Source: Candidatus Woesearchaeota archaeon (GTDB lineage: Archaea > Nanobdellota > Nanobdellia > Woesearchaeales > ARS49). Taken from it: 64,000 nt of DNA. The stretch's first letter is position 1; each line of letters starts with the position of its first letter. The notes beneath the pieces are model-generated. The model worked only from the letters and a program-made list of their open reading frames with translations. It was not told the origin of the DNA and ran no database searches. Shown piece after piece: positions 1 to 44,566 of this stretch. The translations under genes and the position numbers were made by a program. Where the stretch lies: contig JAGVZE010000013.1 in NCBI GenBank assembly GCA_018302815.1, positions 1 to 64,000 on the forward strand, read 5' to 3'.

Positions 1-49
1 TGACATGCATGACGAACTTCCATCAAGCAACATTACACGAATTGATTAT

Positions 50-106
50 TTAATACCGCCGCAGCAAGCTGCGGGGTATTGAACCCAGAAAGGAATAAAC
101 AGAGGA
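50..106. repeat. Partial copy of palindromic element, right half
   Basis: This is a nested hairpin: AATACC (52-57) pairs with GGTATT (75-80), and CCGCAG (59-64) pairs with CTGCGG (69-74) around loop CAAG. It is followed by GAACCC and an end resembling GAATAA. The core AGCAAGCT...GTATTG.ACCC and the terminal AAATAA-like sequence match the right half of the elements at 16016-16168 and 17629-17781. No left half is visible, although the window starts only 50 bases upstream. The element abuts the broken end of a glycosyltransferase gene. Confidence 0.6.
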
Positions 107-16015: not shown

Positions 16016-16168
16016 AAATAAAGAAATTGCCTGAAAACTCGCTATCCAACGCAGCAAACTGCGGGGTATTACGCGAGTTTTCTTCTGCGGGACCGGCAAT
16101 TTCTGTCTTTCATTTTGGGAACGTCCAGCCGTAGCAAGCTGCGGAGTATTGGACCCAAAATGAAATAA
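16016..16168. repeat. Two-domain palindromic element, copy B (153 bp)
   Basis: The left domain has an outer stem AGAAATTGCC (16022-16031) with GGCAATTTCT (16095-16104), a middle stem GAAAACTCGC (16033-16042) with GCGAGTTTTC (16073-16082), and an inner hairpin CGCAG/CTGCG with loop CAAA (16050-16063). A single-stranded linker CTGTC joins it to the right domain: TTTCATTTTGGG (16108-16119) with CCCAAAATGAAA (16154-16165) and an inner hairpin around AGCAAGCT. The copy at 17629-17781 has the same length. It lies between the start of the Cys-rich gene and the end of thioredoxin reductase. Confidence 0.9.
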
Positions 16169-16172
16169 CCGA

Positions 16173-17102
16173 TTACTTAGCGTACTCATGCGAAGCCAAA
16201 GAACCAGTCACAAACTTATACGCCTCAAGCGCAGCTATCGAACCCATCCCTGCGCTAATGACCGTCTGCTTGTACGGAATAGAAGTAAGATCGCCGCACG
16301 CGTACAAACCGGGCGTCTTTGTTCTCGTAAGAGCGTCAACAACAATCTCGCCAACAGCATTAGTCTCTATAAGACCCGTCACCATATCAGTGTGGGTCTC
16401 CCAGCCAATCTCTGAAAAAATACCCTGCACTGAAAGCTCACGGCGATTCTTTGTGTTCACTTCCTCTATGATTAACGCTTTCACGAACTTATCACCCTGA
16501 ATCTCAACAGGAGAATGATTTGTGATAATCTCAATTTTAGGCTCTTTTTTTGCGATTTCAACAGTCACTTCATCAGCCCTGAACTGGTCTCTTCGGTGCA
16601 CAAGATACACCTTCTTCGCAATACGAGCAAGCTCTAACGCTCCTTCCAATGCGCTGTTGCCGCCGCCTATAACCACCGTCTCTTTATTCGGGAACAAAGG
16701 AGCATCGCAAGTCGTGCACGTTGAAAGACCCCTGCCGAAAAACTTGTCCTCACCAGCGATGTTGAGCTTACGCCTCTCTCTTCCGTAGCAAAGTATGACC
16801 GTCTTAGAATCAAGTTTTTTGCCGTCCTCAAACTCTATTGTGAAGTTTTTACCTTTTGAAATACTGGCGACTCTGGATTCGAGAATCTCGGCGCCCCACT
16901 TCTTTGCCTGCGCCCAAAACTTCTTCATCAGTTCAGGACCAGGACCCTCATAACCCGGATAATTCTGAATATCATTCGTGGAATTCGTCTCACCGCCAAT
17001 ATTCGGACCTGTAACAAGAAGCGTCTTAAGTTTTTTCCTTCCGGCATAGATAGCAGCAGTCATACCCGCTGAACCTGCGCCCACGATAATCACATCATAC
17101 AT
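16173..17102 (-). CDS. trxB: Thioredoxin reductase-like flavoprotein
   Basis: A 309-residue low-molecular-weight thioredoxin reductase. It has FAD-binding MYDVIIVGAGSAGMTAAIYA, redox-active STCTTCDAP (CxxC; most homologues have CATCDG), an NAD(P) site VVIGGGNSALEGALELA with HRRDQFRA, and a C-terminal FAD motif PGLYACGDLT. It passes electrons from NAD(P)H to a thioredoxin-like protein. The HRRxxxR sequence argues for NADPH. The start at 17102 is supported by GCTTAAATAG (17125-17134) 27 bases upstream, hence leaderless. The palindromic element begins 5 bases past its stop. Confidence 0.93.
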   Translation of the reverse strand: MYDVIIVGAGSAGMTAAIYAGRKKLKTLLVTGPNIGGETNSTNDIQNYPGYEGPGPELMKKFWAQAKKWGAEILESRVASISKGKNFTIEFEDGKKLDSKTVILCYGRERRKLNIAGEDKFFGRGLSTCTTCDAPLFPNKETVVIGGGNSALEGALELARIAKKVYLVHRRDQFRADEVTVEIAKKEPKIEIITNHSPVEIQGDKFVKALIIEEVNTKNRRELSVQGIFSEIGWETHTDMVTGLIETNAVGEIVVDALTRTKTPGLYACGDLTSIPYKQTVISAGMGSIAALEAYKFVTGSLASHEYAK

Positions 17103-17205
17103 AAAACGCAATTCCACTCACTGACTATTTAAGCATTATGAATATGTCAAAAACACCATTACAGAATAGAAATCTATATTAAACGCCAAACTGCGAGCGA
17201 AGCTT

Positions 17206-17619
17206 ATGAACAACGAACACAACCTCTCAACGCTCGTCATAATCATTCTTGCGAGCGTAAGCCTCATCGCAACACTCTTCTTCGAAACTAGGCTCACATC
17301 CTGGGCCGCGCTTGAAATGGTCATCTTCCTATTCTCCATGATGGTCACGACAGCGCTATTCTTCGGCCTTTGGCTTGATGAACCATGGACGCAATCCCTT
17401 GCAATAATATTCTTTAGCGGCTCGATTGCGAACATGCTCTGGATGTTCGGCATAACACCCGCCAAGCTCACATTCCTCTTCGGAATACTAGTGAACGTCT
17501 GCGGAATCGCGATTGCGCTCTCAAAAGTAGAGAAGCCTTTGTCATACGACATCCAAACATACGAAGTCGAAGAAGCGAAACGGGACTTGGCTGAAAACAA
17601 GAAGAAAGGCAAACGCTGA
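17206..17619 (+). CDS. Four-helix membrane protein
   Basis: A 137-residue protein with four predicted membrane helices (about residues 9-30, 36-56, 64-84 and 88-106), then a charged cytoplasmic tail of 30 residues rich in Lys and Glu. No family is recognised. A TATA-like ATATTAAAC is near 17172-17180, leaving a leader of a few bases. The palindromic element copy C starts 10 bases after its stop and may serve as its 3' end. Function unknown. Confidence 0.75.
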   Translation: MNNEHNLSTLVIIILASVSLIATLFFETRLTSWAALEMVIFLFSMMVTTALFFGLWLDEPWTQSLAIIFFSGSIANMLWMFGITPAKLTFLFGILVNVCGIAIALSKVEKPLSYDIQTYEVEEAKRDLAENKKKGKR

Positions 17620-17628
17620 GCGCCTGCT

Positions 17629-17781
17629 AAATAAAGAAATTGCCTGAAAACTCGCTATCCCTCGGAGCAAAGCTCCGAGGTATTACGCGAGTTTTCTCCT
17701 GCTGGACCGGCAATTTCTGTCTTTCAGTTTGTGTCGTGTTTCCGAAGCAAGCTTCTGGGTATTGAACCCAACCTGAAATAA
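17629..17781. repeat. Two-domain palindromic element, copy C (153 bp)
   Basis: The length and outer sequence match copy B: AGAAATTGCC...GGCAATTTCT and GAAAACTCGC...GCGAGTTTTC are conserved. The innermost hairpin changes to CTCGGAG/CTCCGAG (17661-17679) and remains perfectly paired, although copy B has CGCAG/CTGCG there. In the right domain CAT:ATG of copy B becomes CAG:CTG (in TTTCAG 17722-17727 and CTGAAA). These paired changes show that folding, not sequence, is conserved. The copy fills the space between a plus-strand gene and the FHA gene, 3' to both. Confidence 0.9.
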
Positions 17782-18250: not shown

Positions 18251-20854
18251 TCAATTCCCCGAAAAGAACTTGTGCAATTCCATATACAAAAATCCTGAAA
18301 AAGAGACACCTAGAATCATCCCTAATTCTGTTGCGGAAAGAGCGACCGTGCTGAAGACCTCCTGCAGCAAAGGCACGTAAAGAACCGCGAGCTGCAGACC
18401 CATACTCGAACCTATCGCAAGATACAACCACATATTAGAGAAAGGCTTCACGAAAAATATCGGCTTGTGCAAAGAATGGCAGCTTAGCGCAAGCAACGAC
18501 TCGAAGAAAACCACTGTAGTGAAAGCAATCGTCTGCGCCTTTGTCAAATCATCCAAGAACAAATAGAACAAACCAAGAACGCCAAGCGTCAAAAGAATAG
18601 GACGCACAACCAGGTGCTTTCCTAGCCCATGGAACACGCTCTCTCCTGGTTTTCTTGGCGGAACCTCCATCACGTTAGGCTCCGCAGGGTCAATACCCAG
18701 CGCCAGCGCCGGGAAACCATCAGTTACCAAGTTTATCCACAAAATCTGCAAAGCAAGAAGCGGCAACGGCAGTCCCGCAACCAGCGCGCAAAGGATGATG
18801 GAAACCTCGCCAATATTACTTGCGAGCAGGTAAGCCAAATACTTCTTGATATTCTCGAACACCCTTCTGCCCTCTTCGATTGCGCGCACTATCGTCGCGA
18901 AATTATCATCAGCTAGAACCATGACGCTAGCTTCCTTTGCGACATCAGTGCCTGTTATGCCCATCGAAATACCAATATCCGCCTTCTTAATCGCAGGAGC
19001 GTCATTCACGCCATCGCCAGTCATCGCGACAATGTGGCCATTGGCCTTGAGAGCTGCCACGATGTGAAGCTTGTCCTCAGGATTAACACGAGCATAAATT
19101 GAAATTTCCTCTACCTGCTTTCCAAGATCAGTCATCGCTCGAAGCTCATCGCCCGCGACAGCACGACCCTCAATACCAATCTCTTTAGCAACCGCCTGCG
19201 CAGTAGTTATGTTATCACCAGTAATCATCACAACCTTAATTCCTGCGGTCTTACACTTCTCCACTGCACCCTTAGCGTCAGGACGCGGCGGATCCATCAT
19301 CGCCTGCAATCCAACAAACACCATATCAGACTCGTACTTCTTATCGCTAGGCGAAAGGTCCTTGTACGCGAACGCGAGAACACGCAAAGCGCTCTTCGCA
19401 AACTCATCATTCTTTGAAAGAATAGCCTCCTTCTCTTTTCTTGTCAGACGCTCAATTCTGCCGTTAACCAAAATCTGCGAGCAAAGATTAAGAACAATCT
19501 CGGGCGCCCCTTTCATATAAGCCGCCTTGCGTTTGCCAACCGTATGCACAGTAGTCATGCGCTTACGTTCGCTCGTGAACTCGACTTCCTCGAGCCTTGG
19601 GAACTCATCATGCATACGCTCATCATCAAGCCCTGCTTTTCTTGCGCTCACAAGCAAAGCGCCCTCAGTAGGATCTCCAATTATCTGCCACGCATCCCCT
19701 TCCTTTTTCAAAGAAGCATTATTATTCAAAGCACCAATCCTTAGAAGCAATTCGAATTTCTTGGCATCATCGCCAAACTCGCCCTGCGGAGCGTAACCCG
19801 CACCAGAGATAGAAACAACTTTACGATTCACGAACAACTGCCTAACAGTCATCTCGTTTTTCGTTAACGTGCCTGTCTTATCAGTGCAAATGACCGAACA
19901 AGAGCCAAGAGTCTCGACGCTCGGCAAATGGCGAATCAGAGCGTTCTTCTTCGCAAGCCTTTGAACGCCAAGCGAAAGACCGACAGTCACAACAGCGGGC
20001 AACCCTTCCGGAATAGCGGCCACAGCGAGCGAAACAGCGGTCAAAAGAATAGCGGTGAACGATTCCTCGAGGCGCACAACGCCAACAACGAAAACCAGCA
20101 CTGCGATGAAAATAACTATCATCCCAATCTTCGCGCTCAATTTAGCGAGAGTCTTTTGAAGCGGAGTAGCCTCAGTCTTAGTCTCCTGAATAAGCGTAGC
20201 TATTTTGCCAATCTCTGTTTGCATACCTGTTCCCACAACAACCGCGCGCGCATGTCCGCTAGTAATAATAGTGCTAGAGAACAGCATGTTCTTCCTGTCA
20301 GCCACGCCCACTTCCTTTGCGATCACACTAACCAGCTTCTTTTCAGGAAGGCTTTCACCCGTTAACACCGCTTCCTGCGCGCCCAAATTCATCGCCTCAA
20401 GAAGACGGCAGTCCGCTGACACTTTATCACCCGTGTTCAATATCAGAACATCACCCGGCACGACCTCTGTCGCATCCAAAATCATCTGCTTTCCATCACG
20501 AAGCACTGTCGCTTTAAGCGAGATAAGCTTCATCAAAGCCTCGATAGCGGCTTCAGCGCGGTATTCTTGGAAGAACCCTAACAACGCGTTCAGGACGACG
20601 ATGATGCCAATCACGTAGAAATCAATGTATTCCTCAACTATAAGAGAGATTATCATCGCGCCGAACAAAATCCAGACAAGCGGGCTCTTGAACTGCGAAA
20701 GAAGAATAACCAACGGATGTATTCGCTCGGCCTCTTTTAGCCTATTCTGGCCGTATATCTTCAGCCGCTCACTTGCATCCTCAGTAGAGAGTCCTTTATC
20801 AGAAGAACGAAAATGCTCGAGCACCTCTTTTTCTGATGAACGGTAAAAGTCCAT
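18251..20854 (-). CDS. Calcium-transporting P-type ATPase (P2A/SERCA type)
   Basis: About 867 residues, full length. Actuator-domain TGES is in VLTGESLPEKK, the phosphorylation site is CSVICTDKTGTLTKNEM, the hinge is MTGDGVNDAPAIKKADIG, and ten helices are expected. Calcium ligands of SERCA are present: the TM4 motif AAIPEGLPA, TM5 ASNIGE and TM6 NLVTDGFPA, so both calcium sites may exist. It pumps Ca2+ (or Mn2+) out of the cytoplasm. The start is ATG 20854, with TATA-like CTATATAAAG centred about 29 bases upstream; the longer TTG start at 20872 is too close to that box. It is transcribed alone. Confidence 0.94.
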   Translation of the reverse strand: MDFYRSSEKEVLEHFRSSDKGLSTEDASERLKIYGQNRLKEAERIHPLVILLSQFKSPLVWILFGAMIISLIVEEYIDFYVIGIIVVLNALLGFFQEYRAEAAIEALMKLISLKATVLRDGKQMILDATEVVPGDVLILNTGDKVSADCRLLEAMNLGAQEAVLTGESLPEKKLVSVIAKEVGVADRKNMLFSSTIITSGHARAVVVGTGMQTEIGKIATLIQETKTEATPLQKTLAKLSAKIGMIVIFIAVLVFVVGVVRLEESFTAILLTAVSLAVAAIPEGLPAVVTVGLSLGVQRLAKKNALIRHLPSVETLGSCSVICTDKTGTLTKNEMTVRQLFVNRKVVSISGAGYAPQGEFGDDAKKFELLLRIGALNNNASLKKEGDAWQIIGDPTEGALLVSARKAGLDDERMHDEFPRLEEVEFTSERKRMTTVHTVGKRKAAYMKGAPEIVLNLCSQILVNGRIERLTRKEKEAILSKNDEFAKSALRVLAFAYKDLSPSDKKYESDMVFVGLQAMMDPPRPDAKGAVEKCKTAGIKVVMITGDNITTAQAVAKEIGIEGRAVAGDELRAMTDLGKQVEEISIYARVNPEDKLHIVAALKANGHIVAMTGDGVNDAPAIKKADIGISMGITGTDVAKEASVMVLADDNFATIVRAIEEGRRVFENIKKYLAYLLASNIGEVSIILCALVAGLPLPLLALQILWINLVTDGFPALALGIDPAEPNVMEVPPRKPGESVFHGLGKHLVVRPILLTLGVLGLFYLFLDDLTKAQTIAFTTVVFFESLLALSCHSLHKPIFFVKPFSNMWLYLAIGSSMGLQLAVLYVPLLQEVFSTVALSATELGMILGVSFSGFLYMELHKFFSGN

Positions 20855-43485: not shown

Positions 43486-44484
43486 CTACTCGCCAGACAG
43501 CACTCCTACGCATCTGCCTTCTACACAGCCGCAGCTTCCGCCGCAGTCGAGCGTTCCTGGAGCGCAGTTCATAGTGCACATAACTCCCTCACAGGACGGC
43601 TTTGCAAACAAAGGACCGCACGTAGTTGCATGACAGCACGTGCTTGGAGCGCAGTCGACAGCAGTGTCACACTCCTTTTGAGGAGGATCCATCTGCGCCA
43701 CACACCTGCCCTGCATGCAATCTACATTTCTCATCACAGGCTGCTGCAACGGATCGATGCAGGACGCCATCAAAACAGAACACTGCTCAGCGCCGCACTT
43801 CTGCTCGTAAAACACAGGAGCCTTGTGGACAGTCTTTGGAGCCGCAACCTTGTACGGACCGCAAACACCGCTCACGCCCAAAATCTGACAATCGCTCTTG
43901 TCAAGACAAGAGTTCTCGAAACACTGCTCCGGATTTTGCTTCCAAGATCCATCCTCGCACAACCAATGAGCTGAGGACAAATCTGTTGATTCAGGACAGG
44001 ACGCAAACTCACAGTTCGGATCTGTTCTTTCCACAGAACTTCCATCAGGGCAAATCTTAGCTTCTTCTGTGCACGCAACAGGCTCGTTCCAACCCTGCCT
44101 TGGCGCAGTCTGGCACTTGCCGCTCAAACATTTAGTTTCCAAATGGCCCGCGATACCCGTGCAAAAATCAGGACACTGCTTTGAAGTATCAACTAATTCA
44201 GCTGGACCAACCAGACAATCTCCCGTTTGCCTTGAAACACCGCAGGCGCAGTCCGTGTCAATTGCGCACTCGGACGACTGAACAGGCATCGGGCACGGCG
44301 CGAACTCGCAATTCGGACCTACTCTGCCTACAGCAGAACCGTCGGGGCAAATCCTTGCGTCCATCGTGCAAGCAACGGGTTGCTCAGAACCAGGAGCACA
44401 AGAAATGAGAAAAACAAGAAGAAATAAAGAAATCACCTGAAAAATCGATTGTTTACAAATGTTCAGGTGATTTCTGTCTTTCAT
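43486..44484 (-). CDS. Cysteine-rich lipoprotein with CPDGS repeats
   Basis: About 332 residues, lipobox in FLLVFLISCAPG. The mature part has over 30 cysteines and two copies of a unit reading ARICPDGSAVGRVGPNCEF and AKICPDGSSVERTDPNCEF, each closing with CP. The same unit occurs in the cyclophilin lipoprotein at 58220. The C-terminal part is rich in CC, CGG and CxC. The protein is probably disulfide-stabilised on the cell surface. The n-region of the signal peptide (from ATG 44484) is encoded by palindromic element D; GTG 44436 is an alternative start that avoids most of it. Function unknown. Confidence 0.8.
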   Translation of the reverse strand: MKDRNHLNICKQSIFQVISLFLLVFLISCAPGSEQPVACTMDARICPDGSAVGRVGPNCEFAPCPMPVQSSECAIDTDCACGVSRQTGDCLVGPAELVDTSKQCPDFCTGIAGHLETKCLSGKCQTAPRQGWNEPVACTEEAKICPDGSSVERTDPNCEFASCPESTDLSSAHWLCEDGSWKQNPEQCFENSCLDKSDCQILGVSGVCGPYKVAAPKTVHKAPVFYEQKCGAEQCSVLMASCIDPLQQPVMRNVDCMQGRCVAQMDPPQKECDTAVDCAPSTCCHATTCGPLFAKPSCEGVMCTMNCAPGTLDCGGSCGCVEGRCVGVLSGE

Positions 44485-44535
44485 TTTGGGTTGCTCTTTT
44501 GCATCACCCTGCAAACCAGTCAGCCCAAAATGAAA
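44422..44535. repeat. Two-domain palindromic element, copy D (114 bp, divergent)
   Basis: It shares the left edge AAATAAAGAAAT, the linker TTTCTGTCTTTCATTTTGGG and right arm CCCAAAATGAAA with copies B and C. The outer stem differs: GAAATCACCTGAA (44429-44441) pairs with TTCAGGTGATTTC (44462-44474), 13 perfect pairs. The inner right hairpin is TTTGCA (44498-44503) with TGCAAA (44510-44515). The left inner hairpin of B and C is missing, making it shorter. It overlaps the 5' end of the Cys-rich lipoprotein gene. Confidence 0.85.
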
Positions 44536-44566
44536 CCAAAAAACACCTCTTTTGAAATCAACCATC

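Follow-up and report, generated by a model that had tools for sequence, protein, structure and literature searches.

Palindromic elements of Woesearchaeota resemble transposase-free IS200/IS605 derivatives and carry a guide letter coupled to their insertion site

We analyzed a 64,000-nucleotide stretch of a Candidatus Woesearchaeota archaeon genome (contig JAGVZE010000013.1, positions 1 to 64,000; hereafter the window) and can say with high confidence that the three hairpin-rich repeats within it, copies B, C, and D, are non-autonomous elements of the PATE kind, in which two IS200/IS605-like ends appear to be joined without a transposase gene and which would be moved by TnpA to sites chosen by a guide. 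Judging from sequence comparisons, it is very probable that a small transposase transports such elements in the form of folded single-stranded DNA and that an internal stretch picks the landing site by base pairing. The analysis ties a large palindrome family of Woesearchaeota to a known mechanism of single-strand transposition, and the more than 100 natural copies allow DNA-guided target choice, until now shown with engineered IS608 guides, to be read from sequence.

Copies B and C, described in an earlier note on this DNA, lie where it had placed them and are equal in length; their inner left hairpins read CGCAG/CTGCG and CTCGGAG/CTCCGAG, respectively, and their right stems differ by CAT:ATG versus CAG:CTG, as had been reported. 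Copy D was likewise confirmed to retain TTTCTGTCTTTCATTTT and to have a new left stem. The element boundaries were redrawn from the transposon ends, giving 147 bp each for B and C and 111 bp for D, all on the minus strand, which we infer to be the active one. Copy B, a non-autonomous element with two hairpin domains, spans 16017..16163 and is followed by its target, host DNA reading AATAA on the plus strand and TTATT on the active strand (16164..16168), as defined from the insertion boundaries in tRNA and genes and from the alignment of copies. Its left domain contains the inner hairpin CGCAG/CTGCG (16050..16063) and a guide, GTATT on the plus strand (16066..16070), matching the element's own end AATAA, and its right domain contains an inner hairpin (16129..16144) and a second guide GTATT (16146..16150), which, under the Y-Z rule described below, pairs with the target letter at 16167. 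Copy C (17630..17776), flanked by two convergent genes, has guides GTATT in its left (17680..17684) and right (17759..17763) domains and the target AATAA at 17777..17781 on the plus strand. Copy D (44423..44533) is a short form without guide hairpins and lies in frame in the lipoprotein signal peptide of an open reading frame (ORF) at 43486-44565 (minus strand).

The suggestion that these copies represent a genome-wide family was borne out. A search of the 1.55-Mb, 26-contig genome with copy B matched the query itself and about 20 further places at E ≤ 4e-4, and 16 copies, distributed over both strands of seven contigs, could be parsed end to end. The elements measure 70 to 294 bp, in which a transposase gene would not fit, and their ends, AAAGAAAT.. 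and ..TGAAAT, are not terminal inverted repeats. The consensus on the printed strand reads AAT|AAAGAAATTGCC ... GGCAATTTCT-GTC-TTTCATTTTGGG ... CCCAAAATG-AAAT. The left domain of a 70-bp copy (L022) is a plain loop, and other copies have one, two, or three hairpins nested there. Most left domains, like the right domain, contain an inner hairpin in which GCAGCAAGCTGC is followed by GGGGTATT. This GCAGCAAGCTGC-GGGGTATT palindrome is shared with the parent copies described below, each of whose two ends carries it. Domains are freely gained, lost, and inverted among copies. One copy (L012; G000:C6 near 18270-18343) contains in its linker a different two-hairpin sequence (TCAAAAATCACTA..TAGTGATTTTTGA, CTCGGAATTCC..GGGAATTCCGA), perhaps a second element family that landed in the first.

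Precise insertion is evident at three sites, none of which shows a target duplication. The 70-bp copy interrupts a 3' fragment of tRNA-Pro (TTCGAAT|element|CACAG); the corresponding sequence of the intact tRNA, located about 100 bases away, is TTCGAATCACGG. A 147-bp copy (L002:1504-1650; G000:C24:83216-83362) lies in frame in a radical-SAM methylthiotransferase-like gene, before the C-terminal part, where it accounts for 49 extra codons that are exactly those missing in 17 relatives; the joined flanks read DEKAKER|MSGRNYAYK, compared with DEKAKEGMAGRN and similar sequences in the relatives. Copy D splits the signal peptide in frame with 37 codons, and its joined flanks read MVDFKRGVFWFLLVFLISC|APGSEQ. 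Another copy (L006) is likewise in frame within an ORF. The ORF hosting copy D stays open and receives from the element a new ATG at 44484, so that the host protein may have a longer or re-started N-terminus. At the tRNA locus (L022:1326-1570, minus strand; G000:C15), a second copy of the 3' half of tRNA-Pro(CGG), together with the bases after it, occurs about 100 bases downstream, which resembles an attachment site or a partial tRNA duplication.

Several copies, B and C among them, are located between convergent genes or a few bases past a stop codon, a distribution that would also suit elements of mobile origin of which many copies are now retained as putative transcription terminators or 3'-end hairpins. 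We regard such reuse as unlikely, because the position needs no function: TNATT frequently overlaps a stop codon or comes after one, where an insertion does no harm.

The origin of the elements from IS200/IS605-type transposons is suggested by a longer parent element. Six contig ends of this genome bear two recurrent ends, one of which (AATAAAGTTACTTG..hairpin..GGGGTATTA) is found on C3, C8, and C18 and the other (..hairpin..GGGGTATTGAACCCAGAAAGGAATAA) on C11, which is the window start, C18, and C26; together they look like a longer repeated element omitted from the assembly. Positions 1..93 of the window (minus strand) thus appear to be the end of a TnpA-coding copy cut by the contig edge, with the same end at two other contig ends, a hairpin at 59-74, the guide GTATT at 76-80, and the target AATAA at 94-98. 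Read on the other strand, this end leads into ATG GAA GTT CGT CAT GCA TGT (MEVRHAC), with the tnpA start codon at position 23. The earlier observation that the window holds no transposase accordingly stands for everything except positions 1-98, an insertion-sequence end with the first seven tnpA codons at the contig edge. These seven codons are also the extent of the gene in this genome's assembly, which holds no complete TnpA-coding copy.

A complete element is present in genome G003, of the same family, where two copies of about 540 bp at different sites share 544 identical bases, have matching ends, and carry tnpA as their sole gene (protein start MNVRYASHC). The encoded protein is a Y1_Tnp transposase (PF01797, 110 bits) with the HLH motif and scores 124.8 bits against the IS200/IS605 model NF033573 (cut-off 55) and 19.4 bits against the REP-associated model (cut-off 80). 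Its sequence is related to those of ISHp608 TnpA and other transposases of solved structure; the 2xm3-2xqc chains we take to be ISDra2 TnpA. Close relatives are encoded in G041 (84%) and G043 (59%). The parent copies have no counterpart of the outer stems by which the short elements are closed at their very ends. In the G003 species, a 50-base solo-hairpin form of the parent (L122, 96-167) directly abuts the end of a full element, which implies that element ends themselves act as targets. The one Y1 protein found in this genome, encoded at C26:244315, was considered as the mobiliser and rejected, as its flanks have none of these ends. That locus (L031) encodes a second, diverged Y1 transposase with other flanks and adjoins a tRNA-like sequence with an intron-like insert and LAGLIDADG-looking ORFs.

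The earlier note had likened the repeats to REP/BIME palindromes mobilised by a Y1 transposase. A Y1-mobilised genome-wide family is supported by the parent with matching ends and an IS200/IS605 TnpA; the REP/BIME assignment did not hold. Spread by a domesticated REP-associated transposase (RAYT) would account for palindromes at gene ends and for a Y1-type enzyme, and a Y1 protein does occur in the genome, but the TnpA with matching ends belongs to the IS200/IS605 group and falls far below the REP cut-off; the GTAG tetranucleotide is absent 5' of the palindrome, where the active strand has AATAC or variants; both the ends and the insertion site of the elements are defined; and the transposase gene is itself part of the mobile unit and is multicopy in G003, contrary to the definition of REP systems (PMC8266576). 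We therefore consider a REP/BIME origin very improbable.

Movement by an IS200/IS605-type TnpA makes a prediction on the insertion sites. In IS608, the target is not read by the TnpA protein; instead, each hairpin is preceded on its 5' side by a guide, and these guides pair with the cleavage sites as well as with the target, which remains in the left flank (PMC5934647), and such DNA-guided target choice predicts complementarity between guide and target. The active strand was assumed to be the reverse complement of the printed strand, that is, the tnpA sense strand; the guide was taken as the conserved GTATY beside the hairpin and the target as the flanking AATZA (5'-TZATT on the active strand, with Z complemented), so that Y and Z should be complementary. 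Among 80 covariance-model matches that were fetched, 77 copies from 35 genomes could be parsed, and Y and Z pair in 67 of them, compared with a shuffled mean of 37.0 (0/20,000 shuffles); with one entry per genome and letter pair, they pair in 36 of 44, compared with 17.6 (0/100,000). The mutual information between Y and Z amounts to 0.75 bits and does not exceed 0.33 bits for any other position pair.

The rule, fixed beforehand, was then applied unchanged to a held-out set of 60 unfetched copies, of which 45 were parsed. Pairing was found in 35 of the 45, versus 17.2 expected from shuffles, and in 25 of 33 collapsed entries, versus 13.0 (0/50,000 each), and 44/45 have A as the next letter of the flank. 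The shuffles leave some shared descent in place, and the result survives collapsing by genome; when T-A pairs are removed, the collapsed held-out set has no excess of its own (12/20 versus 10.3), because the remainder is nearly all G-C. Over both sets, T occurs with A in 63/67 copies, G with C in 28/32, C with G in 10/15, and A with T in 1/8. The rule is therefore firm with T and G; with C it is suggestive, and with A it is absent. At the left end, with the cleavage site inside the element, 48 of 52 copies pair (shuffled mean 40.9), as do 24 of 28 collapsed entries (19.1; 28/50,000). At the right end, Z belongs to the host DNA, being present in the intact tRNA and in joined gene flanks that are coding, and the coupling there is therefore most simply explained as target choice. 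By these statistics, insertion takes place 3' of a short, fixed target complementary to the guide beside the hairpin. Related elements in G444, a genome of the same class (L260-L263), have AATAA flanks and, where the guide would lie, GGTTTT, possibly reflecting another guide register; they were excluded from the held-out set by its rule.

The compensatory stem changes first seen between B and C hold up across the long copies of the family. In an alignment of 14 long copies, two-sided changes affect 10 of 39 pairs, compared with a shuffled mean of 3.4 (0/500), and the covariation score is 0.156, compared with 0.083 for shuffled alignments and at most 0.067 with slid partners. The signal comes from the right stem and from the inner hairpins of the left domain; the outermost left stem is nearly invariant. 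Wobble cells on the printed strand comprise 105 A-C versus 41 G-U, a difference driven by few columns, and correspond to 30 versus 24 distinct events. In one copy (L010), the inner loop is reverse-complemented between unchanged arms, the signature left when template switching occurs between inverted repeats. This process is known to homogenise arms and to invert spacers (PMC8604942), and a similar case is made for RNA hairpins (PMC8794818). Because template switching between arms also yields compensatory change, covariation alone is not proof of selection on RNA, and such switching combined with selection for single-stranded DNA hairpins suffices to explain the changes observed. Compensatory change had earlier been taken as a mark of REP elements or structured RNAs; the change is real, and the mark is not specific, being equally expected for single-stranded DNA hairpins and for arm homogenisation by template switching. 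A structured RNA family, riboswitch-like or sRNA, duplicated around the genome would show the clear consensus fold and the covarying stems, the latter not specific to RNA, but is extremely improbable given the absence of Rfam matches in the window, the precise insertions in a tRNA fragment and coding genes, the link between guide letter and flanking host DNA, and the free gain, loss, and inversion of domains. Covarying hairpins in intergenic archaeal DNA are thus not necessarily RNA genes.

For the transposition of these elements, we propose the following mechanism. On the strand opposite to the printed one, each domain would form a hairpin in single-stranded DNA, and the Y1 HUH transposase TnpA, provided in trans by a longer copy, would bind both hairpins. 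Each hairpin's 5' guide (AATAC or a variant of it) would pair with a cleavage site; at one end this site is the flanking TNATT, and at the opposite end it is a TTATT belonging to the element. The strand would then be excised by TnpA as a circle and inserted 3' of a new, guide-chosen TNATT without target duplication. The stem arms would be kept complementary because TnpA needs the hairpins and because changes are copied between arms by template switching.

Of the 353 genomes examined in the order, at least 61, mostly Woesearchaeota, contain covariance-model matches; this count is a lower bound, since only 8 candidates were scored per genome. In a draw of 279 genomes across the phylum, 25 had matches, 23 of them from the same order and 2 from the same class. 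The end pattern, searched in approximately 85,000 species genomes, was found chiefly in Woesearchaeota, with one Aenigmatarchaeota bin and one further archaeon, and gave zero matches in the viral contigs searched. End-pattern matches in Flavobacterium, Membranihabitans, Algoriphagus, Aurantibacter, and Planctomycetales look like chance, with neither hairpin nor element adjoining, and were rejected. Among open-access papers, we found none describing this Woesearchaeota palindrome family, although a description may exist elsewhere. Tentatively, the family may have repeatedly re-set its own insertion site across the archaeal order by single changes in its DNA guide, with hairpins rebuilt by nesting, inversion, and arm copying, and with closed outer stems that may mask the ends and restrain movement; we regard this broader scenario as possible rather than probable.

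Several known systems invite comparison. Rickettsia palindromic elements are likewise about 100-150 bp long and lie in frame inside protein genes, whereas the ends and target of the Woesearchaeota elements point to a Y1 transposase. REP/BIME elements with RAYT share the palindromic structure, the mostly intergenic location, and Y1-type enzymes (PMC8266576), whereas the elements described here lack GTAG, have a TnpA from another clade, and are defined, two-ended units. Related by TnpA sequence are IS608 (ISHp608) and ISDra2 of the IS200/IS605 family, which likewise have a hairpin near each end, an adjoining guide, and a short target kept in the flank (PMC5934647); in contrast to these, the window elements are gene-less, their target is TNATT, and the parent carries tnpA only. 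The PATEs of Haloquadratum walsbyi likewise have palindromes near both ends, contain no gene, lack terminal inverted repeats, and cause no target duplication; their ends resemble those of IS605-type elements, and they too occur in a terminal-only form of about 50 bp (PMC3119063), represented here by L122. Unlike PATEs, the Woesearchaeota elements have stems closing over their very ends, nested hairpins, covarying arms, and covarying guide and target letters.
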